From assembly GCA_016198625.1 (NCBI GenBank), contig JACQIH010000002.1, positions 1-12,212 of the forward strand: a stretch of 12,212 bases of DNA, written 5' to 3'. Of this stretch, positions 1 through 12,127 are shown piece after piece (within the stretch, counting starts at the first letter, position 1; every line of letters starts with the position of its first letter). This DNA is from Candidatus Aenigmatarchaeota archaeon. Its GTDB lineage: Archaea > Aenigmatarchaeota > Aenigmatarchaeia > GW2011-AR5. Under the pieces are notes generated by a model. It had not been told where the DNA came from and did no database searches. It saw only the letters and a program-made list of their open reading frames with translations. A program made the position numbers and the translations under genes.

Positions 1-54
1 ACATTACTCAGAGAACGCGGTACGTTTACTTATGACTATAGGGGATGTATTTGA
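1..54 (+). CDS. 3' end of an upstream gene (partial)
   Basis: An open frame runs from the window edge and ends with TGA at 52-54; the readable tail is TLLRERGTFTYDYRGCI. The stop overlaps the ATG at 54 of the giant gene in a TGATG arrangement, typical of translationally coupled operon genes. This overlap is the main reason to believe the frame. Too little is visible to assign a family, and a chance 17-codon open frame cannot be excluded. Confidence 0.4.
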   Translation, partial: TLLRERGTFTYDYRGCI

Positions 55-3000
55 TGCCACCAGAAGAGAAAGAGTTCAAGGATTTGGTACGTCGGCTTAA
101 GAAAGAGATTTTAACTTATGAAAAGCCGGAAGACGCGAAGGAGTATGCTAAACTTCAGTTTATGAAAATAGGCGTGTCTGAAAAAAAGGCGGAAAAAGTT
201 GCGAATGAATTGATTGCAAACTACTGGAAAAAAGGCAAGATAGAAAAAAAGAAAGTGGAAAAAGAAGTTGAAAAGGAAGTAGGCGAAGTACGAAGGAAAG
301 AAGCTAGAAGATCTTGGTCGGTAACCACGGAAGAAGGCTACGAAGAATTTAACAAGGGATGGCTCGCGCTTCAGGAAATAAGACGAGGATTTTATTCTGA
401 CACCCAATGGGAAAAAATGAGCGACAGAATCAAATTGGAATTTTACAAGCATATTGAAGATATACTCAAAAACCCAGGAAAATACAGGGATGACGAAGAC
501 TACGAGACAATAAAAATAGCCTTGGCGAAAAGTTCTGTAAAGGGAATAGAAGGACATCCTGTTGACAAGCTTGAAGAAGCAGCTTTGATGGCAATCGGAG
601 TTCTTAAAAGAGGAAGGCCTACAAGTAAAGGTCCCTTAGGAAGATGGGGCACTGCAAGGGATATATTGACGTATTGGAGTGTACCAGGCCCAAGTCCTTC
701 TCCCAGTCCAAGCCCTTCACCAAGCCCTTCCCCGTCACCCTCCCCAAGTCCATCACCATCTCCCTCACCCTCCCCAAGTCCATCACCGAGTCCATCACCG
801 AGTCCATCACCCATCCCGCCTTTTATATGGACAAAGGAAAAGCTGGCAATCAAGAAAACGCATCCGGAAATAGTCAGGATAGCGGACTGGAAAAAGGACT
901 TTGACAAGGAAAAGGACGACTGGAAGAAGCGCCATGATGCATGGAAAAAGGATATGGACAAATGGAACAGGGAATGGAACGAATACCTGAATAGCCTCGG
1001 TGGTCCTAGCCCGAAGTCGAAACCATTAGACCCTCCAGACGAGCCCCAAGAGCCCCAGCCTCCAAGCGAAGTAGGCGAGAAGGGCTTCCCCACAAAAGGC
1101 CGGGTGCGCGTAAAGGTCGAGATGGAGCCCATAGCAAGGATTTCAGTCCCGGCAGGCAGGGAGCTGATAGTAAAAGTTATTATCCGCTCGTTCAATCCCA
1201 GGCTGGCAGAAGGCGAAAAGCGGGAGTATATTCAAGAAGAAAAATGGGACCCTGTCAAGAAATTTGACCATGAGTTCAAGTTCGACTTGCCACCGGGAAA
1301 TTACTCTGTTACAGTAGAAGTATATACTTCTCTCAAAAGGCTTTTAGGCAAAAAGGGTCCCCAGCCTCTTCTTGTTCTAGGCGTCGGCGAAGTTTCTCAC
1401 GATTACCGCGCGGAGATGTACGGCGGCTACCAGCCGCGAGGCACGGAAATCGGCGATACGGCCGGAAGCTTGCTGAGCCTGGGCGGGATAAGGAAACGGC
1501 TCGGCAAGGAAATAGGCCAGCTTCTCTGGAAGGACCGCACGGCGAATCCTTTCCTGAGGAATGCCGTAAACGCCGGGAAGAAGATGCTCGACGAGGCGGG
1601 CGCCACGGAGTATTCGCGTCTTTTCGAGGGCGTGGGCGGCCTGAAGCAGCGGTACCAGCAGAGATGGCGCGACCTTCAGGGACGGAGAGGCCAGTACCAG
1701 CAGGACCTTGGGCGCCTGCGCGGCCATATCAGGCGTTACGAGAGGCAGTTCGGCGCGCCGCGGTTCGGCGTAAGGCCCAACGACATCATCAACGTTGCGG
1801 GAAGGGCGCTGCAGGATGTTACAGCGTCAGCACAGCTTGAGGCAGCGGGCATAAGGGCGCAGGTAGAGGACCTCATGACCCGCGCCAGGCAGTACCAGGA
1901 AGACCGTGACAATTATTTCACGGAATTCGACAAGGAGCTTCTTGATTTGTCCGCGCGGCTCCGCGATTACCTTAGGGAAAGAGCAAGGACGTTTACCATA
2001 CGCCTCGCGCGCAGGTACAGGTTCCCGATAACGCCGCTTGCTGAAAAACCGAGCGAAGACTTGCCCGAAGGCGCGAAGGACACAATAGCCCTGGACACGG
2101 AACTCAGGGATTATTCGACAAACCTTGCCGAGGATTACGTCAAGCGCGGCAGGACGTTCTTCCACGCGCTGTCCCGCCAGCTGGGCAGGATAGGCGGAGC
2201 CGGCGAGACGTTCGGAGAGACATATTACAACGTAGTCAGAAGCTTGTGGGACCTCATAACAGGGCCGTGGACGATAGCATGGATTTTCGTCGTAATCCAG
2301 CTTTACTTCTCGCTGAACTACATCGGCTACCAGCCCACGCTGCTTTTCTCGATGCCGGCCGCAGGCGCCCTGATGATGTTCTTCATGAACTTCTCGCAGG
2401 TGAAGCGGCCTTTGGACGGCGCTACCCACGCGGGAGTCGGAGCCCTGCTCGGCCAGGGGATTATCATCTTCATGTACGCGCTTGGCATTACGCCGAGCCT
2501 GTGGGGATGGACGTGGTTCGCTGGCATATGGTTCCTCCTCGGCACCATAGGCGCGTTCGAGTTCTATCCTGTCGGAGGGCCGCGCATAATGTTCCAGACA
2601 GCCGTGCTCGTCCTTGTGTTCGGATACCTCGCATTGGGGCCTTACAAGGGCTACTGGGAACTGGTGAAGGACCAGCTCCGCGCGCCGCTGTACACGATAT
2701 ACCTTTCAGCCAAAAGCGCCGTGAGCGACGTCTGGCTGCTCGCTACAAACCCCACTGCTTGGTACGCGAAGCAGCAGGTAATCAACGTGAAGCCCGAGCA
2801 GCCCATATCGTTCCCGATAGAAGTAGAGACAACGCACTTCGGGGCAGAGCCACCCCAGGCCCCTGCCGGGACAGCTTTCTCCACTATTGTTGTCGTCCGC
2901 AACGTGGGCAAGCTCGACGCGCGCGACATCAATATCGAATACGAGTGCAACGAGTGGTGCGACACGCGAGTCGCGAAGCTGCAGCAAACAGACAGGTTCA

Positions 3001-6000
3001 GCGTCATGAGGCCCGGTGAAAGCAACAGCTTCACCATAAACAACATCTTGGCGAAGCGCGCCTCCGGCAGGGAAGCCGAGTTCCGCAGGGCGCGCGTCTT
3101 CTTCAACGTGTCGTACAACTACTCGACGAATTCCTCGCTGAGGGTGGAAGTGATAAGCCAGCAGGAGCTGAACAGGAAGTACCGCGAGCGCGAGGAGGTT
3201 TTCGTGCCAGTGCTCGCGACGGACAAGGCGACCAGCGTGAAGTTCTCTCTCAACGTCGGACCGCAGCCGCTTATCTATAACGGAGGCGCCGCGAACCCCC
3301 GCAACTGCGACGAGGCGGGCGGCACGTGCAGGGAGATGCTCAAAGGCTCGGAGCAGCAATACTACGTTTGCGAGGATGAGGTGACCGGCAAGTCAAGGTG
3401 CCTAGAAAGCTGCCCTTACAACCCGCCGCTCAACAGGGAAAAACTCAAGGAAGGTCCTTACTCGCTCGCGGAATGCCAGGCAAAGGCCGGTCTGGAAGTA
3501 ACCGCACAGCCCGCTGCGCCTGCCGAGACGAGCCCGTGCCCGGGCAATGAAATAAAAACACAGCAGTGCGTGGCCGGCAGCGTATGCTGCAAGAAGCAGG
3601 GCACCGGCCAGCTTCTGGTTTCCGTGAGCAACCGCAGGCCCGACGGCAGGATAGTTCTGAGGAAGGACAGCGAGATATTGATTTACTTCCCTAACTCAAT
3701 CGGCAAGAGCCTGAACTGCAACGGCTGGACGAAGCTGAGAACGGAGAATTTTGTAGAAAAGGATCCTAAAACAGGTCGGGATATTTATAAGTACAGAGAT
3801 AGAGTCCGGGCCGCCGCTGCCCAGGGCAAGGAGCTTGTCGTTTACAGGATGCCGCTGACTGCGGAGATGAAACCCTACGAGTTCCAGACGACGTTCGCGC
3901 TGCTCTGCAACTTTGAGGTAGCGTCCGTGGAAACGGCGCGGACGGACTTCATCATCGCGGAGCTGCCCGAATACATATTCAAGCTCGAGAAAATACTGGA
4001 CGTCCCCGTGACGCCGCCGATAGGCATCCTGTTCGACCCTGACCAGGCGACCTGCAGCCAGTGCGGCGACGGAACGTGGCAGAAATGCAAGCCTGAAAGA
4101 TGCACCGAGCTTTCGGGCAAGGACAAGAAATGCTGGTACGACACAGGCGGCTCGGGCAGCGTTTTCGACAAGGACGGCACCAAGCTCAGCAACCTGTACC
4201 AGAAGATAGCTTCTTACGTAATCCTCGACAGGTGCCGCTCGTGCGGCAAGGTGTTCGAACAGAGCGTGGCGTGCGAGACGTTCTATTACCAGGACGCGTG
4301 CGAGAGGGTAGCGAAAGACCAGTGCAGCCTGAACTGCAAATGGGCCAAGCTCGATGATTTGGCGAGCCGCCCGGGAATAACCCTCACCGATCTGGAGAAG
4401 ACGCAGAACGGCAGATGCGAGGCGAAAACAGGAATAATCGGGGCGCCTGCCAATTACTGCAAGGACCTCGGAGCGAACAAATGGTGCGTGCTGGGCCAGG
4501 GAGCCTGCAACGACGACAAGGAATGCTATCCCGCAGGAAGCGCCCTCGAATGCCGCGACCCGGGCGTCGGAGCAAAGCTATGTTGCAGCAAATATAACAA
4601 GAACGACCCCACCGCCGAAGCGAAATCAAACCAGGAATGCAAGGCAGAGTTTAACAAGGTCAGGCAGCAGGTCATGGCGCCGCCTGCAGGCAAGGCCGCT
4701 GTCGGGGCATGCGACCTTACAAACGTGAATGCGATAAACAGGGAGCAACTGCGCAATTACATCACGACGAACGCGCCGGCTGATTCCATACTTAGGAACG
4801 CGCCGGATGCAATCTACGACGCAGCGACAAGCTCGGGAATCAATCCTGCGTTCCTGCTTGCGCTGGCAGTGCATGAAGGCGCGTGGGGGACTTCCGAAAT
4901 AGCAAAATGCAAGCTGAATACCTTTGGCTGGGGTGCCCAAGAATCCTGCAAAGGTCAGCACTGTACTTCCGACGGTCCGGGTTGCGCTATAAGATTTTCG
5001 ACAGCTAAGGATGGAATAGAGACAGTTTCCAAAGGAATTTACGAGAAATGGCTTTCCCCAACGCCGACCTATCCGCCGCAGCGCGTGAATCTCGACCAGA
5101 TAAGCGGAAATACGCCGCTCACCAACGGCTGGACAATTTACGCCTCGGATAATAATTGGCCGCAGGGCGTCGCGAACAAAATGAGCGAAATATTAGGGGC
5201 AACGTGCAGCCCGACGGCACAGCCCAGCTACGCAGCCGCGCAGCCCGGCGTATCCGCAGCAGCCTTGTCATGGCCCGTGCCGTCCAGCAGCAGCATAAGC
5301 AGCTGCTTCGGGCCGCGGCCCTCGACGAATAGTGTTCATGGAGGCATTGACATTGCAGGAAGCACTGGCGTGCCTGTTCTTGCCGCAGCAGACGGCTATG
5401 TGGAATTTGTCAATACAGATTCCAATGGCTGCAGCGGCGGCGGAATATGCATGAGCGTAAAACATACTGCGGATAGCGTGACTTACTACACGTGGTATCT
5501 GCACCTTAGCAGCATACGGAGCGATTTGCTCTCGGCAACGAAAGACAATCCTATTCGTGTTACAATGGGTGATGAAATAGCGAAGCTCGGCAACACGGGA
5601 GTAAGCCAAGGACCTCACTTGCATTTCGAAATCCGCGACGCCAGCAATAAAGCAAGAGACGGCGCGATCAATCCATGCCTGTTCCTGGACTGCAGGAGCA
5701 AGACCGTTCTCGCGGAAGTCAGCAATCCGCAGGGATGCAACGACGTCAGCCCTGCCCAAGGCTCCGGAGTTACGACAACTTCCATACCGCCGCTGCAGAA
5801 GACATTTTTGCCTGCAACTTTCCTGGGCTCTCCGGATTATTGCTCGACAAAGGCGCAGGACTTCGCCGGGCTGAAATGCAAATCAGGCGAGGGAAGATGC
5901 AAGAGCACGAGCGAGTGCGAAGACAATATTGAAGTGATAACAACTTCTAGCGGCGAGCAAAGGTCTCTTCGACTCGATTGCCGGGATCCGGGAGTCGGCA

Positions 6001-6086
6001 TCAATCTTTGCTGCCTGGAAAAGACAGAAGGGTTTGATTCCGACTTTGTCTGCAGGTCAGACTACAACAGAAATAAAGGAACATAA
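54..6086 (+). CDS. Giant membrane-anchored surface protein with GH73-like and M23 peptidoglycan hydrolase domains
   Basis: About 2010 residues. I chose ATG 54 because it overlaps the upstream stop (TGATG) and has an AGGGGA Shine-Dalgarno-like run at 40-45; ATG 45 is an in-frame alternative, and TGA at 33-35 closes the frame upstream. There is no N-terminal signal peptide. Domains in order: Lys/Glu-rich helices (1-100); Pro-(Ser-Pro)20 spacer (213-253); Trp heptad coil (279-308); Pro-rich linker; beta domain (about 350-445); Gln/Arg-rich helical region (about 500-720); five hydrophobic segments (about 738-862); Ig/CARDB-like domain (about 913-1070) with sequons N1018, N1022 and N1026; Cys-rich and beta segments with CxxC pairs (1070-1535); GH73-like domain (1561-1718) with AVHEGAWGTS, probable catalytic Glu1608, and NTFGWG; M23 domain (1740-1876) with HxxxD (His1762, Asp1766), His1817 and HLH (His1855, His1857), so all expected zinc and catalytic residues are present. 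GH73 enzymes cut glycan strands and M23 enzymes cut peptide cross-links of bacterial murein. Odd segment count and basic loops predict N-inside, C-outside. The function in this cell is inferred: wall attack, or wall opening for a transfer machine. Confidence 0.9.
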   Translation: MPPEEKEFKDLVRRLKKEILTYEKPEDAKEYAKLQFMKIGVSEKKAEKVANELIANYWKKGKIEKKKVEKEVEKEVGEVRRKEARRSWSVTTEEGYEEFNKGWLALQEIRRGFYSDTQWEKMSDRIKLEFYKHIEDILKNPGKYRDDEDYETIKIALAKSSVKGIEGHPVDKLEEAALMAIGVLKRGRPTSKGPLGRWGTARDILTYWSVPGPSPSPSPSPSPSPSPSPSPSPSPSPSPSPSPSPSPSPSPSPIPPFIWTKEKLAIKKTHPEIVRIADWKKDFDKEKDDWKKRHDAWKKDMDKWNREWNEYLNSLGGPSPKSKPLDPPDEPQEPQPPSEVGEKGFPTKGRVRVKVEMEPIARISVPAGRELIVKVIIRSFNPRLAEGEKREYIQEEKWDPVKKFDHEFKFDLPPGNYSVTVEVYTSLKRLLGKKGPQPLLVLGVGEVSHDYRAEMYGGYQPRGTEIGDTAGSLLSLGGIRKRLGKEIGQLLWKDRTANPFLRNAVNAGKKMLDEAGATEYSRLFEGVGGLKQRYQQRWRDLQGRRGQYQQDLGRLRGHIRRYERQFGAPRFGVRPNDIINVAGRALQDVTASAQLEAAGIRAQVEDLMTRARQYQEDRDNYFTEFDKELLDLSARLRDYLRERARTFTIRLARRYRFPITPLAEKPSEDLPEGAKDTIALDTELRDYSTNLAEDYVKRGRTFFHALSRQLGRIGGAGETFGETYYNVVRSLWDLITGPWTIAWIFVVIQLYFSLNYIGYQPTLLFSMPAAGALMMFFMNFSQVKRPLDGATHAGVGALLGQGIIIFMYALGITPSLWGWTWFAGIWFLLGTIGAFEFYPVGGPRIMFQTAVLVLVFGYLALGPYKGYWELVKDQLRAPLYTIYLSAKSAVSDVWLLATNPTAWYAKQQVINVKPEQPISFPIEVETTHFGAEPPQAPAGTAFSTIVVVRNVGKLDARDINIEYECNEWCDTRVAKLQQTDRFSVMRPGESNSFTINNILAKRASGREAEFRRARVFFNVSYNYSTNSSLRVEVISQQELNRKYREREEVFVPVLATDKATSVKFSLNVGPQPLIYNGGAANPRNCDEAGGTCREMLKGSEQQYYVCEDEVTGKSRCLESCPYNPPLNREKLKEGPYSLAECQAKAGLEVTAQPAAPAETSPCPGNEIKTQQCVAGSVCCKKQGTGQLLVSVSNRRPDGRIVLRKDSEILIYFPNSIGKSLNCNGWTKLRTENFVEKDPKTGRDIYKYRDRVRAAAAQGKELVVYRMPLTAEMKPYEFQTTFALLCNFEVASVETARTDFIIAELPEYIFKLEKILDVPVTPPIGILFDPDQATCSQCGDGTWQKCKPERCTELSGKDKKCWYDTGGSGSVFDKDGTKLSNLYQKIASYVILDRCRSCGKVFEQSVACETFYYQDACERVAKDQCSLNCKWAKLDDLASRPGITLTDLEKTQNGRCEAKTGIIGAPANYCKDLGANKWCVLGQGACNDDKECYPAGSALECRDPGVGAKLCCSKYNKNDPTAEAKSNQECKAEFNKVRQQVMAPPAGKAAVGACDLTNVNAINREQLRNYITTNAPADSILRNAPDAIYDAATSSGINPAFLLALAVHEGAWGTSEIAKCKLNTFGWGAQESCKGQHCTSDGPGCAIRFSTAKDGIETVSKGIYEKWLSPTPTYPPQRVNLDQISGNTPLTNGWTIYASDNNWPQGVANKMSEILGATCSPTAQPSYAAAQPGVSAAALSWPVPSSSSISSCFGPRPSTNSVHGGIDIAGSTGVPVLAAADGYVEFVNTDSNGCSGGGICMSVKHTADSVTYYTWYLHLSSIRSDLLSATKDNPIRVTMGDEIAKLGNTGVSQGPHLHFEIRDASNKARDGAINPCLFLDCRSKTVLAEVSNPQGCNDVSPAQGSGVTTTSIPPLQKTFLPATFLGSPDYCSTKAQDFAGLKCKSGEGRCKSTSECEDNIEVITTSSGEQRSLRLDCRDPGVGINLCCLEKTEGFDSDFVCRSDYNRNKGT
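690..812 (+). repeat. (Ser-Pro)20 codon repeat inside the giant gene
   Basis: 41 codons encode Pro followed by 20 Ser-Pro pairs. The DNA uses mixed synonymous codons (TCA, TCC, TCT, AGT, AGC with CCA, CCC, CCT, CCG). A 23-base unit at 735-757 recurs exactly at 765-787, which suggests growth by replication slippage. The product is a stiff extended spacer between the N-terminal helices and the Trp heptad coil. Confidence 0.92.
4455..4586 (+). repeat. Cys-rich module, copy A
   Basis: Residues 1468-1511 start with YC and end with ECRDPGVGAKLCC, spacing seven cysteines over the module. A second copy lies at 5838-6014. This copy is just before the GH73-like domain and runs on into a tail ending near QECKAEFN. 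The pattern suggests a small disulfide-stabilised extracellular fold. Its binding target is unknown. Confidence 0.7.
5838..6014 (+). repeat. Cys-rich module, copy B
   Basis: Residues 1929-1987 start with YC and end with DCRDPGVGINLCC, matching copy A at 4455-4586, with a longer middle loop. It follows the M23 domain and is nearly the end of the protein; the tail FVCRSDYN parallels the tail of copy A. The two copies therefore bracket the lytic domains. Confidence 0.7.
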
Positions 6087-8808: not shown

Positions 8809-10569
8809 TTATCTGCTTTTCGGCGTGAATCCAAAGCCTTTAAGCGCATTTTCGAACCCGCGATTAACCGTTTCCAAGTCCCTGTTAAGCCTTTCGCGCG
8901 AAGGGCCCACAATCTGCTCGCTTCGCTGGGCTTCCCTTACTGCTGTTTCCTGTCTTAAGAATCTCTCGCCAGCATCCCTGTGACCGCTATATCCTACGTT
9001 TCCTACGATAATATCCATCTGGTCGCCTGATACATTCACTGATCGGATTCCGAGCTCGCGAGCCCGTTCACGAGCCACGTTTTCTGCCTGAACTGGTAAG
9101 TTGGCGGCGAAGGACTGAACGAAAGCAGATGCCAATCCTGATGGAGTGGGAGGCGCTGAAGGGACGTAGATTCCCTGGCTTTGCGCCGAGCGATAAATAA
9201 CTCTTATGTTGTCGTCGCTAAGCCCCTTTGTCGCTCTTCTCATCTCCCCCTGGTACGCTAATCTTTCCTCAGACCGAAGCGATGACGCAACGCTCCTGAA
9301 TTCCCTTAGCAGCTCAAATACGTAATCAACCGAGCCGTACGTAGAAACATCAACATTTTCGAGCATCTTTATAATTCCTGACACGGTTGATTCGTTAATG
9401 CTTCCTATGATCGGGGAATCGGATGAAAACAAGCTGTTTATAAGATATGACGACGCTATACGCCTTCCGTTTCGAGAGAACATAACAGTAGGGTCTCGAA
9501 GCGCATCGATCAAGGCAGCGGAAAAAACCTGCGGGTTGCTCTGAAATCCGTAAAGATTCTTTTTATTACCGCTTTCCATGGAGGCGATTATCTGGTTTTT
9601 CATAGACCGTTGAGAAACAGAATGAGTGTTAAGCCACCAAGAAAGGTTGTTCAATGAATAGGGAACAGGCCTATACACATCAACAACAGGAATCCTGCCG
9701 CGCGAAGTCTCCTTGTAATTTACTGCGACAATTTCCTTTACGCCGTTGTTCATTCTAATTACGGGGATTTCATCGCTTTTTATGACACCCATAGCGTCTG
9801 ACAGAATAGGGCGGGTCCCGGAGTGGAAAGTTAACCTATTGATTTTCATTACCCATTTGCCGCCTTCTTTAGGACCTCCCTTGTACAGAATAACTGCTTC
9901 CAAATCAGGCTTCTCGTCCATGTTTTCCTGCCAGATTCTTTCCCAGTGAGAAAGCTCTTCGGGACCATATACGCTGAAAAAAATATCTGTATCTCTGTAA
10001 GAGATGTCAGCAGGGTAGTAGGCAAAGATCCTATCATTTCTGCCACGGTCCCAAGACACGCCCCTTTTTACTCTGCCTGCAACAAAATAAGCATCGTGTT
10101 CTCCAATCTTTATCGGAACAACATGTTCAAGCTCTGTTCCCGAAATTATTCTTGAGCGACTTCTCAAACGCTCAAGTTGGTCCTCGGAAACCCTTATGTT
10201 AGAATTAACCTGAGACGGCTTAGGCGATGTGGAAGCAGTTTGCTGCGGAGCCTCGTCTATGCTCATTCTGACCCATTTGTCGCCGTAGCTTGCAACGCAT
10301 CCCTTTTCTCCTTTCGGAGTCTTGACAAGATACCAAGGCTCGTTCCCGTCCTTGTAAGGGGAATTACCGGTTATTGTAAGCTTTTCACCCCGTTCCAAAA
10401 CCCTGACAACATCATAATTTGTTCCGCAGTCAGTCCTAAGCCTGACATCTCTTGCAGTCACTTCAGCTGTAAGCGGTTTGGGTTGCTGTGACTGTCTTTG
10501 CCCTGGAGAACATGCTGCCGCGAGCAGCGCGGACATCGCGAGCGTGACGTAAAGAGGAGCGCCTCGCAT
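8809..10569 (-). CDS. Putative lipoprotein with N-terminal bacterial-type SH3 (SH3b) domain
   Basis: 586 residues. The N-terminus has the form of an export signal: a short basic start, a hydrophobic stretch and LLAAAC (Cys20), a plausible though not perfect lipobox. Residues about 35-103 fit the SH3b pattern: VRLRTDCGTNYDVVRVLERG, a WYLVK strand, then GEKGCVASYGDKW. SH3b domains in bacterial cell-wall enzymes often bind peptidoglycan. Two cysteines (48 and 92) may form a disulfide. A Thr/Ser/Pro/Gln linker follows, then about 470 residues of unrecognised sequence, mixed alpha/beta first and helical and charged from about 390 on. A TATA-like box centred 26 bases before ATG 10569 implies a leaderless transcript. 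Base composition is AT-richer than the adjoining DUF63 gene. Its C-terminus may be shortened by a frameshift. It may act at the surface together with the giant hydrolase. Confidence 0.8.
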   Translation of the reverse strand: MRGAPLYVTLAMSALLAAACSPGQRQSQQPKPLTAEVTARDVRLRTDCGTNYDVVRVLERGEKLTITGNSPYKDGNEPWYLVKTPKGEKGCVASYGDKWVRMSIDEAPQQTASTSPKPSQVNSNIRVSEDQLERLRSRSRIISGTELEHVVPIKIGEHDAYFVAGRVKRGVSWDRGRNDRIFAYYPADISYRDTDIFFSVYGPEELSHWERIWQENMDEKPDLEAVILYKGGPKEGGKWVMKINRLTFHSGTRPILSDAMGVIKSDEIPVIRMNNGVKEIVAVNYKETSRGRIPVVDVYRPVPYSLNNLSWWLNTHSVSQRSMKNQIIASMESGNKKNLYGFQSNPQVFSAALIDALRDPTVMFSRNGRRIASSYLINSLFSSDSPIIGSINESTVSGIIKMLENVDVSTYGSVDYVFELLREFRSVASSLRSEERLAYQGEMRRATKGLSDDNIRVIYRSAQSQGIYVPSAPPTPSGLASAFVQSFAANLPVQAENVARERARELGIRSVNVSGDQMDIIVGNVGYSGHRDAGERFLRQETAVREAQRSEQIVGPSRERLNRDLETVNRGFENALKGFGFTPKSR

Positions 10570-10599: not shown

Positions 10600-11478
10600 T
10601 TACACTCCCATTACGATACGGAGCCAGTTCCGCAGGCCCGGGCCCAGGCCGAGAATGAGCACTGCGATTTTCAGGAAGTTTCTTTTTTCAGCCTCGCTTT
10701 TCTCGTGCATCTCCTTGTCGAGATAGTAAAGAACCCCAGCGATGACAGGCAGCTTAAGCACGAAGATGCCAGCGGGACCCAGGACGCTGATGAAAAAGCC
10801 GGCGACAACGTGCTGCTCGAAGTATGGGTAGAACTGCAGCGCGACGAAAGTGGTCGTGGCGTCGAACATGTGCGCGCCGAGCAGCAGCGAATTCTCGACG
10901 CTGAGGACCTTGTCCCTCAGGCCGAAAATATTTTTCTGCCTCGCAATCCATATCAGGAAAAACCACGCAGCGGATATTGTCAGGACAGCGCCCAGCGCGA
11001 AGACGTCTGAAACGCGCAGCTGCAAGAGCAGCAGCACGTTCAGTAGCGCACCTATCGCGAACCAGATTTTATGGTATTCTGTTTTTGTCGTTCGTTGCAA
11101 AAGAAGGGCAAGGGCGAGCGTTGCTGCAGCAATGAAAAATATCGTGATGTAAATCAGCGGGCTTATCAGCAGCAGGTTGCGCGCCGCGCCCGTGGCGTCG
11201 ACGAGGATGAAAGGAGCCAGGAAAGTGTCCAGCAATGACTGCGTCGCTCCGCTCGCTTCCCATAAATCCTCGACGGCGCGCAGGATGCCTCCCATGGCTA
11301 TGTACGGGCTTATCGCAAAGATGAATTTCCTGTCTATCGCGATGCCGAGTTTTTTCAGCCCCTTGTAAGCAAGGAACACGGCGGCGACAAAAAGGACCGC
11401 GTAAGCAGCCGTATTCACGATGTTGTAGCCGGTGTTGTACCTTATGGGGTCGATGAAGTACTGCTCGAAGATGCCCAT
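10600..11478 (-). CDS. DUF63 family multi-pass membrane protein
   Basis: 292 residues, the usual length for DUF63, an archaeal integral membrane family of unknown function. Family signatures in order: an N-terminal YFIDPI followed by GYNIVNT; GGILRAVEDLW after the second hydrophobic stretch; the GAHMFDATTTFVAL region followed by EQHV; and a final GLGPGLRNWLR. About seven or eight hydrophobic segments are visible. ATG 11478 fits the conserved N-terminus. A TATA-like TTTAAA at 11517-11522 would give a leader of about 15 bases. The gene is distinctly GC-rich (40 of 60 bases at 11161-11220). It precedes the lipoprotein gene by 30 bases on the same strand but the latter has its own promoter. As DUF63 is a widespread archaeal family, it may be a core gene bordering an accessory block. 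Confidence 0.92.
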   Translation of the reverse strand: MGIFEQYFIDPIRYNTGYNIVNTAAYAVLFVAAVFLAYKGLKKLGIAIDRKFIFAISPYIAMGGILRAVEDLWEASGATQSLLDTFLAPFILVDATGAARNLLLISPLIYITIFFIAAATLALALLLQRTTKTEYHKIWFAIGALLNVLLLLQLRVSDVFALGAVLTISAAWFFLIWIARQKNIFGLRDKVLSVENSLLLGAHMFDATTTFVALQFYPYFEQHVVAGFFISVLGPAGIFVLKLPVIAGVLYYLDKEMHEKSEAEKRNFLKIAVLILGLGPGLRNWLRIVMGV

Positions 11479-11531: not shown

Positions 11532-11567
11532 ATTTAAGTAAGAAAGTAAAACTATACTACTGGTGGT
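11532..11567 (+). promoter_or_regulatory. Promoter and ribosome-binding site of the AbrB-PIN pair
   Basis: ATTTAAGT at 11532-11539 is a TATA-like box predicting a start near 11561. GGTGGT at 11562-11567, four bases before ATG 11572, resembles the archaeal GGTGAT element and decides the start in favour of ATG 11572 over the in-frame GTG at 11563. Confidence 0.55.
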
Positions 11568-11571
11568 AATT

Positions 11572-11820
11572 ATGGCCGAGAAGGAAGTTCAGGTAACAAC
11601 TGCATCGGAAAAGGGACAGGTTGTTATACCTCAGGAAATAAGGGCATCCCTTAGAATAAGCCCGGGAACAAAATTCGCTGTATATGGAAAAGGCGATACT
11701 ATTATTTTCAAGCGCCTTGAAGTTCCTACGGCAAAGGACTTTGAGAGTCTGGCCGCATTCGGCAGGAAATTTGCAAAGAAAAAAGGCATAAAGCAGACAG
11801 ATGTGCTTGAGAATGATTAG
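11572..11820 (+). CDS. AbrB/MazE-type antitoxin
   Basis: 82 residues. The N-terminal half fits the AbrB/SpoVT swapped-hairpin DNA-binding domain: VTTASEKGQVVIP, EIRASLRI, PGTKFAVY, then a strand with IIFKRLE (roughly residues 6-50). The C-terminal half is a Lys-rich helix expected to bind and mask the toxin. Such proteins commonly repress their own promoter as a complex with the toxin. The stop overlaps the start of the PIN gene by 8 bases, a standard antitoxin-toxin arrangement. The start is fixed by GGTGGT upstream. Confidence 0.9.
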   Translation: MAEKEVQVTTASEKGQVVIPQEIRASLRISPGTKFAVYGKGDTIIFKRLEVPTAKDFESLAAFGRKFAKKKGIKQTDVLEND

Positions 11821-12127
11821 GGCAGTCCCGGACACAAACATAATAATTTCTGCTGTTTTCTGGAAGGGCAAGCCTTATCAGGTAATTCTTAAGGGTGTAA
11901 AGGGAGATTACGAGCTTGTAACTTCTCCGGAAATAATAGGCGAAGTGGCTGAAAGACTAAGAAACAAATTCAATTTTCCGGAGGATAAAATACAGGAACA
12001 CTTGAACATACTGATGGCATTAACCCATGTCGTTAGACCATCAACTAAACTAGACATCGTAAGGGACAGAAACGACAACAAAATAATTGAGTGTGCAATT
12101 GATGGCGAAGCAAATTTTATTGCATGA
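11813..12127 (+). CDS. PIN-domain toxin ribonuclease, C-terminally truncated
   Basis: 104 residues from ATG 11813. It matches the PIN_3 type of putative toxins: VPDTNIIISAVFWKGKPYQ (Asp7 and Asn9), YELVTSPEIIGEV (Glu44) and DRNDNKIIECA (Asp85, Asp88). PIN toxins are Mg-dependent RNases that need three or four acidic residues. Intact relatives run to about 130-140 residues and continue after the ANFI strand with a GDxxLL motif supplying the last acid. Here the frame stops right after NFIA, so that motif and the C-terminal helix are missing and the protein is probably inactive. The break coincides with the start of the hairpin array at 12121. An alternative upstream start is ATG 11801. The gene overlaps its antitoxin gene by 8 bases. 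Confidence 0.85.
   Translation: MIRAVPDTNIIISAVFWKGKPYQVILKGVKGDYELVTSPEIIGEVAERLRNKFNFPEDKIQEHLNILMALTHVVRPSTKLDIVRDRNDNKIIECAIDGEANFIA

Follow-up and report, generated by a model that had tools for sequence, protein, structure and literature searches.

Why would an archaeon carry two enzymes predicted to cut bacterial walls on one giant protein, and on whose wall would they act? The question is raised by a stretch of 12,212 nucleotides (here called the window) from a Candidatus Aenigmatarchaeota archaeon (assembly GCA_016198625.1, contig JACQIH010000002.1), about half of which is taken up by a single open frame (45–6086, + strand). A preliminary description, made from the letters alone, had read this frame as a surface protein with intact GH73-like and M23 domains and five membrane spans, and had suggested contact-dependent attack, predation or wall breaching for transfer. 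The two domains stand; that the pair is one of several tips borne by a conserved scaffold was invisible to a reader of this one sequence. Sequence comparison places the protein in a scaffold family that is conserved among archaea and has a variable C-terminal tip. We consider it probable that it is a membrane-anchored arm on the Aenigmatarchaeota cell surface, which breaches bacterial walls by means of an exchangeable tip. Its parts, all on the + strand, are the following.

54–6086, +: giant scaffold-plus-hydrolase protein (frame, Pfam, start inspection)
54–2255, +: N-terminal part, predicted to be cytoplasmic, without cysteine, with a Pro-Ser tract (topology inferred)
687–815, +: (Pro-Ser)n tract (sequence)
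2256–2642, +: membrane bundle, probably of five spans, ending at a GPY motif invariant in alignment A1 (hydropathy, alignment, model)
2814–4022, +: extracytoplasmic immunoglobulin-like (Ig-like) beta-sandwich in two segments (about 2814–3161 and about 3603–4022), with a Cys-rich loop inserted
4053–4724, +: Cys-rich stalk, including copy 1 of a Cys module at about 4437–4670 (sequence)
4809–5186, +: GH73 (Glucosaminidase, PF01832) domain, predicted catalytic Glu codon 4875–4877 (Pfam)
5334–5645, +: Peptidase_M23 (PF01551) domain with HxxxD, H and HxH intact (Pfam, motifs, model)
5817–6077, +: copy 2 of the Cys module, C-terminal, 53% identical to the end of the same-genus relative's protein, whose hydrolase differs

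ATG 54 is a likelier start than ATG 45, because GGGG stands at 41–44 and the relative P0006 lines up from there by eye; this agrees with the start first proposed and gives a protein of 2010 amino acids (2013 if counted from ATG 45; residue numbers here are counted from nucleotide 45). Across the 2013 residues, Pfam returned two families at E values up to 0.1, both above their curated cut-offs: Glucosaminidase at residues 1589–1714 (E 2.1e-8, 35.3 bits against a cut-off of 30.2) and Peptidase_M23 at residues 1764–1867 (E 1.9e-18, 66.8 bits against 28.7). A single open reading frame thus holds both domains with their motifs intact (HEGAWG at 1610, HGGID at 1765, YLHLS at 1818 and HLHFE at 1858), as had been claimed. 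The Glu of HEGAWGTS, which we take to be catalytic as in other GH73 motifs, aligns with the Glu of ALESNWGRS in the solved glucosaminidases 7pj3 and 4q2w in a weak phmmer match (E 0.005); HxxxD, the middle His and HxH presumably play the roles that they have in other M23 enzymes. The M23 part was modelled in an M23 fold, with a predicted local distance difference test score (pLDDT) above 90 over most of its length and structural matches to 7qrl_C (E 2.5e-10) and LytM (2b0p_A, TMt 0.85). Of the analyses that the preliminary description had proposed, the domain search found both domains, and structure prediction gave a confident fold for M23 and a low-confidence model for GH73, whose assignment rests on the profile, the motif and the weak alignment with solved glucosaminidases. 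No SLT match was found in the giant protein by Pfam, nor anywhere in the window's genome.

Both enzyme families also occur elsewhere. The same genome encodes a second M23 protein in a frame of 176 amino acids (G000:C6:2340-2678; L002, L166), and M23 matches in frames of about 135–180 amino acids recur across the phylum. On a contig of 1.8 kb, a protein of 528 amino acids with a signal-peptide-like start (P0009) shares 59% identity with the window in its GH73 part, and is possibly a secreted version of the window's tip. Among the best 120 of 856 tip relatives, the M23 carriers with named sources are bacterial, many of them from Paenibacillus.

The contig itself is archaeal, as the preliminary description had supposed, and of Aenigmatarchaeota type, within the DPANN archaea. 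It is contig C32 of a metagenome-assembled genome (MAG) of 508 kb in 88 contigs; archaeal small-subunit ribosomal RNA was not found in this MAG, which is estimated to be 56% complete. The closest named relative of the giant is a hypothetical protein of Ca. Aenigmarchaeota. Among 16 scaffold loci in named genomes, obtained by a search with alignment A2, 11 lie in genomes named Ca. Aenigmatarchaeota, four in genomes named only as archaeon (GW2011_AR5 included) and one in a genome named Ca. Nanohalarchaeota. Some scaffold loci sit on contigs of 918, 399 and 346 kb, and the window's DUF63 protein shares 74% identity with its counterpart after the scaffold in the same-genus relative. On the strength of the 11 named loci, one of them on the 918-kb contig, and of the DUF63 identity, we rejected a bacterial contig or a mis-binned gene.

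How widely is the scaffold found? A query with its core (membrane bundle and Ig-like part, residues 491–1332) matched 37 of 156 genomes of the phylum, including 26 of the 31 genomes of the window's order. A profile of 24 cores found matches in 135 of 392 genomes: strong ones (E 1e-73 or better) in the same 26 order genomes, weak ones, confined to the Ig-like part, in another two genomes of the order, and still weaker ones in many other genomes of the class and in at least 28 outside the phylum. Many of the weaker matches are restricted to the Ig-like region and some also take in part of the membrane bundle. At one locus (L052, G072:C38) the scaffold runs across two reading frames of 924 and 1034 amino acids, through either a true break or an assembly error.

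That the tip can differ on a constant scaffold is seen most directly in a pair from one genus, the window and G064/P0001. Their cores are 69% identical in the core alignment (56% by BLAST over residues 413–1079), and further alignments cover residues 1188–1459 (44%) and 1925–2011 (53%); between residues 1459 and 1925, only another copy of the end Cys module matches significantly. In the same place, between matching Cys-rich flanks, the window has GH73 and M23 domains and its relative has an SLT-like domain. By eye, similar Cys modules are present in class members without a recognised hydrolase, and for this reason they may be binding or spacer modules.

Across the order, tips were read after the scaffold in 26 genomes, with 20 of the tails scanned with Pfam. 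Fifteen are of murein-hydrolase type, in ten no hydrolase was recognised and one is unclear (G066, E 0.057). The 15 draw on SLT, GH73, M23, VanY and Amidase_2 in eight arrangements, and 11 of them have at least one domain over its Pfam cut-off.

GH73 and M23: the window
SLT alone (n = 8): G064, G056, G057, G058, G071, G062, G063, G060
SLT and an esterase: G067
SLT and M23: G065
M23 and SLT: G077
SLT and Amidase_2: G075
GH73 and VanY: G072
M23 alone: G083

A database protein, P0007, has a tip of SLT and VanY. Outside the order, five of 19 class-level giants carry a hydrolase over the cut-off (one GH73, four SLT), and in a sixth class-level genome, G116, an SLT match lies inside the same frame of 732 amino acids as the scaffold match. 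Some SLT tips were read with a profile internal to the family, built from eight of 14 intended tips (six were without the required motif), which gave E values between 3e-9 and 5e-4 if 20,000 sequences are assumed, with a domain E of only 0.005 for G063. This profile gave L041 only E 0.02 and did not list L051, though both pass Pfam; it gave E 1e-4 to the SLT of P0002, which is absent by Pfam. The case rests mainly on the tips recognised at Pfam level and on the same-genus pair.

On a quickly built scaffold tree of 47 rows (one unlabelled), the SLT state requires five changes, three of them forced by well-supported branches, and the state without a hydrolase seven, four of them so forced. This suggests that the tips were in part inherited and in part changed several times, on a tree whose deep branches are weak. 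Within the phylum, M23 matches were found in 56 of 156 genomes, SLT in 46 and GH73 in 11. SLT was present in five of 80 archaeal genomes outside the phylum as against 46 of 156 within it; the 80 were drawn from 236 and not at random (28 with a scaffold-profile match and 52 without), and three of the five SLT-positive genomes (G165, G285 and G325) are among the 28. Two other long frames carry such domains: one of 1232 amino acids (L159, G076:C16) with M23 and Glucosaminidase matches and no scaffold-profile match, which may be a giant of separate origin that bears the same two enzymes, and one of 3646 amino acids with an SLT match (G073:C6:85305-85601).

Where the tip lies with respect to the membrane can be judged from the distribution of cysteines. 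In the window protein the first 967 residues hold none and the rest, from residue 968 on, holds 54, for which reason the C-terminus is very probably outside the cell. The same asymmetry is found in all 28 members with a placeable GPY motif, which have 0–3 cysteines before the motif and 2–54 after it, with more after than before in every one; several of them end at a contig edge. The five spans of the preliminary description are probable rather than proven: a hydropathy scan at a strict threshold gave three, and an AlphaFold2 model (pTM, a predicted template modelling score, of 0.48) has helices at residues 741–759, 764–781, 791–812 and a long one at 822–864 which, if read as two spans, would probably bring the total to five. 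These results are read most simply as an odd number of spans, probably five, that puts the Cys-rich side outside the cell. The membrane anchoring finds support, and there is a high probability that the enzymes are displayed outside. No signal peptide was seen by eye in the N-terminal part, where the (Pro-Ser)n tract (687–815, predicted to be cytoplasmic) is coded by imperfect tandem repeats. In structure comparison the Ig-like part matched many unrelated Ig-like domains, an archaeal fusexin among them, which we took as a common fold only and not as an informative relationship; the membrane bundle gave no informative match, which says little.

Whose wall, then, would these enzymes cut? SLT and GH73 enzymes cut glycan strands, M23 and VanY enzymes cut peptide stems or bridges, and Amidase_2 cuts sugar from peptide. 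SLT, GH73, VanY and Amidase_2 are known for bonds to N-acetylmuramic acid (MurNAc) or D-alanine (D-Ala), which pseudomurein does not have, and the one polymer with all these bonds is, to our knowledge, bacterial peptidoglycan. A transpeptidase was matched in none of the 31 order genomes, eight of which are at least 90% complete, by a search whose control was positive in ten of 14 known genomes. Mur_ligase_M was matched in seven of the 31, and neither in the MAG of the window (56% complete) nor in the same-genus relative (90%); its control was also positive in two archaea, so that the family is not specific to murein. Synthesis of a murein of the archaeon's own was rejected on these two results. 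Murein is in all likelihood the substrate, and since the bonds addressed by the tips meet only in peptidoglycan and the order is without a transpeptidase match, the wall that is cut is most likely that of another cell, a bacterium; the earlier proposal that the enzymes act on other cells' walls thus finds support. We know of no identified host of Aenigmatarchaeota. It is improbable that the enzymes act on pseudomurein or another polymer in the wall of an archaeal host, as the MurNAc and D-Ala bonds targeted by SLT, GH73, VanY and Amidase_2 are absent from pseudomurein, although every cultivated member of DPANN reportedly grows on an archaeal host (PMC11291902).

We therefore picture an arm of the following kind. 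The protein would be held by its large cytoplasmic part together with some five membrane spans, and the Ig-like sandwich with the Cys-rich modules would form a stalk outside the cell. The far end would bear peptidoglycan cutters, in the window a glucosaminidase for the glycan strands and an M23 endopeptidase for the peptide cross-links. Such an arm could reach a touching bacterium and open its wall locally, probably working together with small lipoprotein-like neighbours that share the Ig-like part, and perhaps with DUF63. The tip would change in evolution while the scaffold stays, as might be expected if the cells adapt to one bacterial partner or prey after another. That the enzymes are used on a touching bacterium, and not released, seems moderately likely to us, and the purpose would be feeding or attachment.

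The main rival reading strikes us as rather unlikely. In it, the scaffold serves the phylum as a surface structure of general use, and the hydrolases are additions for scavenging the murein of dead bacteria as food, with no attack on live cells. Scaffolds lacking a hydrolase are indeed frequent (10 of the 26 order members, 14 of the 19 class-level ones), and scavenging is treated as an open possibility for archaeal hydrolases in the Discussion of PMC12352652. A membrane-tethered enzyme would, however, make a poor forager, and tips that pair a strand cutter with a peptide cutter (GH73 with M23, SLT with M23, GH73 with VanY, SLT with Amidase_2) would suit the opening of an intact wall.

Several observations weigh against a wall-breaching arm. 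Four of the 15 hydrolase tips (G064, G063, G060 and the SLT of G067) rest on the family-internal profile; when Pfam was run across whole genomes, SLT went unmatched in G063, G064 and G067 and was matched below the cut-off in G060. Of the ten order members without a recognised hydrolase, five were scanned with Pfam and the others by eye and in genome-wide searches for SLT, GH73 and M23; no hydrolase was found by eye or in genome-wide family searches in the other 14 of the 19 class-level giants, nor by eye in four more class-level proteins. Because so many members are without one, the scaffold would seem to have a job that needs no hydrolase. Over all tip states the tree requires 12–13 changes, where the least possible is 11 (for 12 states) and shuffled labels give a mean of 21.7; the states cluster, so inheritance accounts for most of the tips, and the total is chiefly a measure of how many kinds there are. 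Nor does composition prove a recent acquisition of the tip, because the G+C content at third codon positions is as low in the N-terminus (0.55) as in the tip (0.56–0.58, against 0.77 in the scaffold), and a foreign origin of the tip by this measure was set aside as undecided. The GH73 model has low confidence (pLDDT averaged over ten residues does not exceed 77 within the first 60 residues and stays under 50 across residues 64–150), and Pfam finds no wall-binding domain in the giant itself. In the genome of the window, the relatives of the lipoprotein-like genes sit on another contig, C86. Proteolytic release of the tip is also conceivable.

The neighbourhood of the scaffold was compared over 31 loci. 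In the window, two genes that follow on the opposite strand are of note.

8809–10569, −: putative lipoprotein with LAAAC near its start and a bacterial SH3 domain (SH3_3, about 10294–10446) (Pfam, sequence)
10600–11478, −: DUF63 membrane protein (BLAST cluster at 16 of 31 loci)

Recurrent clusters include DUF63, at 16 of the 31 loci, and two that were characterised by eye: a beta-rich protein with one span, at 13 loci, and a coiled-coil protein, at nine. At 18 loci there are one to five smaller scaffold-related proteins each (58 in total), with an Ig-like stretch resembling that of the scaffold; 43 of the 58 have a lipobox-like motif by a loose pattern without a chance control, and some of these matches, such as those at position 2 and position 66, are doubtful. 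The SH3_3 lipoprotein of the window falls in no cluster with other loci and has no BLAST match among the neighbours of the same-genus relative. Bacterial SH3 domains of other proteins can bind walls, and a lipoprotein of this kind beside the arm is a possible accessory. Among 62 of 148 listed neighbours that were scanned, no family occurs in more than two, as far as the 25 of 97 families listed go; VirB4 is not one of these 25. Adjoining DUF63, overlapping MazE-like and PIN_3 genes (11563–12127, +) form a toxin-antitoxin-like pair.

These neighbours bear on two further readings. Were the locus part of a conjugation-like or type IV secretion system, the giant would act like VirB1 or PrgK plus a channel protein. 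Gram-positive VirB1-type proteins can join two wall hydrolases (PMC12102498), and type II secretion F-type domains occur in two of the 62 scanned neighbours; yet the coupling protein PF02534 matched in two of 31 order genomes, both matches being marginal and short, in searches that did not include VirB4, and the characterised neighbour clusters are DUF63, small lipoprotein-like, one-span beta-rich and coiled-coil proteins. The two PF02534 matches score 19.6 and 17.8 bits (with neighbours 20.1, the cut-off being 20.1), and none was found in the incomplete MAG of the window. Wall breaching for transfer, as first suggested, thus receives little support, and we regard a secretion system as quite improbable. 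A wall-entry protein of a virus or provirus lodged in archaeal genomes appears more improbable still. Virion-associated lysins also combine such domains, but no relative turned up in viral contigs (in one pattern-plus-tblastn scan of limited sensitivity), and the scaffold is present in 26 of 31 order genomes, in some of them on contigs of up to 918 kb, and is accompanied by the DUF63 cluster at 16 of the 31 loci compared.

The kind is known, since there are earlier reports of giant murein enzymes from other DPANN. Closest in description is fam00969 (PMC8204110), a family of very large, predicted extracellular lytic transglycosylases from Pacearchaeota and Woesearchaeota, for which bacterial hosts have been proposed as the target. 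It shares with the window protein the DPANN origin, the very large size, the predicted extracellular place, a wall-degrading domain and proposed bacterial hosts; it differs in phylum and in being a transglycosylase rather than GH73 with M23, though relatives of the window protein have SLT. Varying tips on a polytopic scaffold are not among the features described for fam00969 in the available text, the comparison between the two being one of description. 'Vampiristic' Woesearchaeota MAGs with large lytic transglycosylases (PMC9723730) likewise are DPANN for which predation with a wall enzyme is predicted; that system has one enzyme class (GH23), and no scaffold family is described in the part of the paper available, which also lists pore-forming toxin gene homologues in Aenigmarchaeota, among others. 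A large lytic transglycosylase is further reported in three DPANN MAGs of oxygen-deficient zones (PMC10936187), and autolysin-like proteins are reported in a nanohaloarchaeon (PMC11291902).

Outside DPANN, Woldo (M23) and Danwoldo (glucosaminidase) of Halogranum salarium were shown to kill a bacterium (PMC12352652). They too are archaeal and have an M23 or a glucosaminidase domain, but they are found in culture supernatant and have peptidoglycan-binding domains, whereas the window has one membrane-anchored protein with both enzyme families and no Pfam wall-binding domain. That paper defines a modular archaeal peptidoglycan hydrolase by a catalytic and a wall-binding domain in the same protein; here SH3_3 lies in a separate neighbour. 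With hydrolases of the VirB1, PrgK and TraG type (PMC12102498) the window protein shares a multi-domain hydrolase for local wall opening, and it differs from them in having no convincing coupling protein in the order, another scaffold and, presumably, another cell's wall as its target. Among the papers listed in searches of open-licence literature, no title or start of an abstract describes this polytopic scaffold with varying tips, which is weak evidence of absence.

Tentatively, the order as a whole might live on bacteria by means of a hitherto undescribed surface apparatus of scaffold, lipoprotein-like partners and DUF63, with tips matched to the wall of the current host, local opening of that wall and uptake of the contents; members without a hydrolase would then turn the apparatus on partners without murein. 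For the wall-breaching arm itself, a constant scaffold with differing bacterial-wall enzymes points to bacterial partners in a direct and testable way, and the type of wall may be predictable from the type of tip. The window also provides a locus (the giant arm, its lipoprotein-like neighbours and DUF63) and, as far as sequence can tell, archaeal enzymes that may act on bacterial walls.

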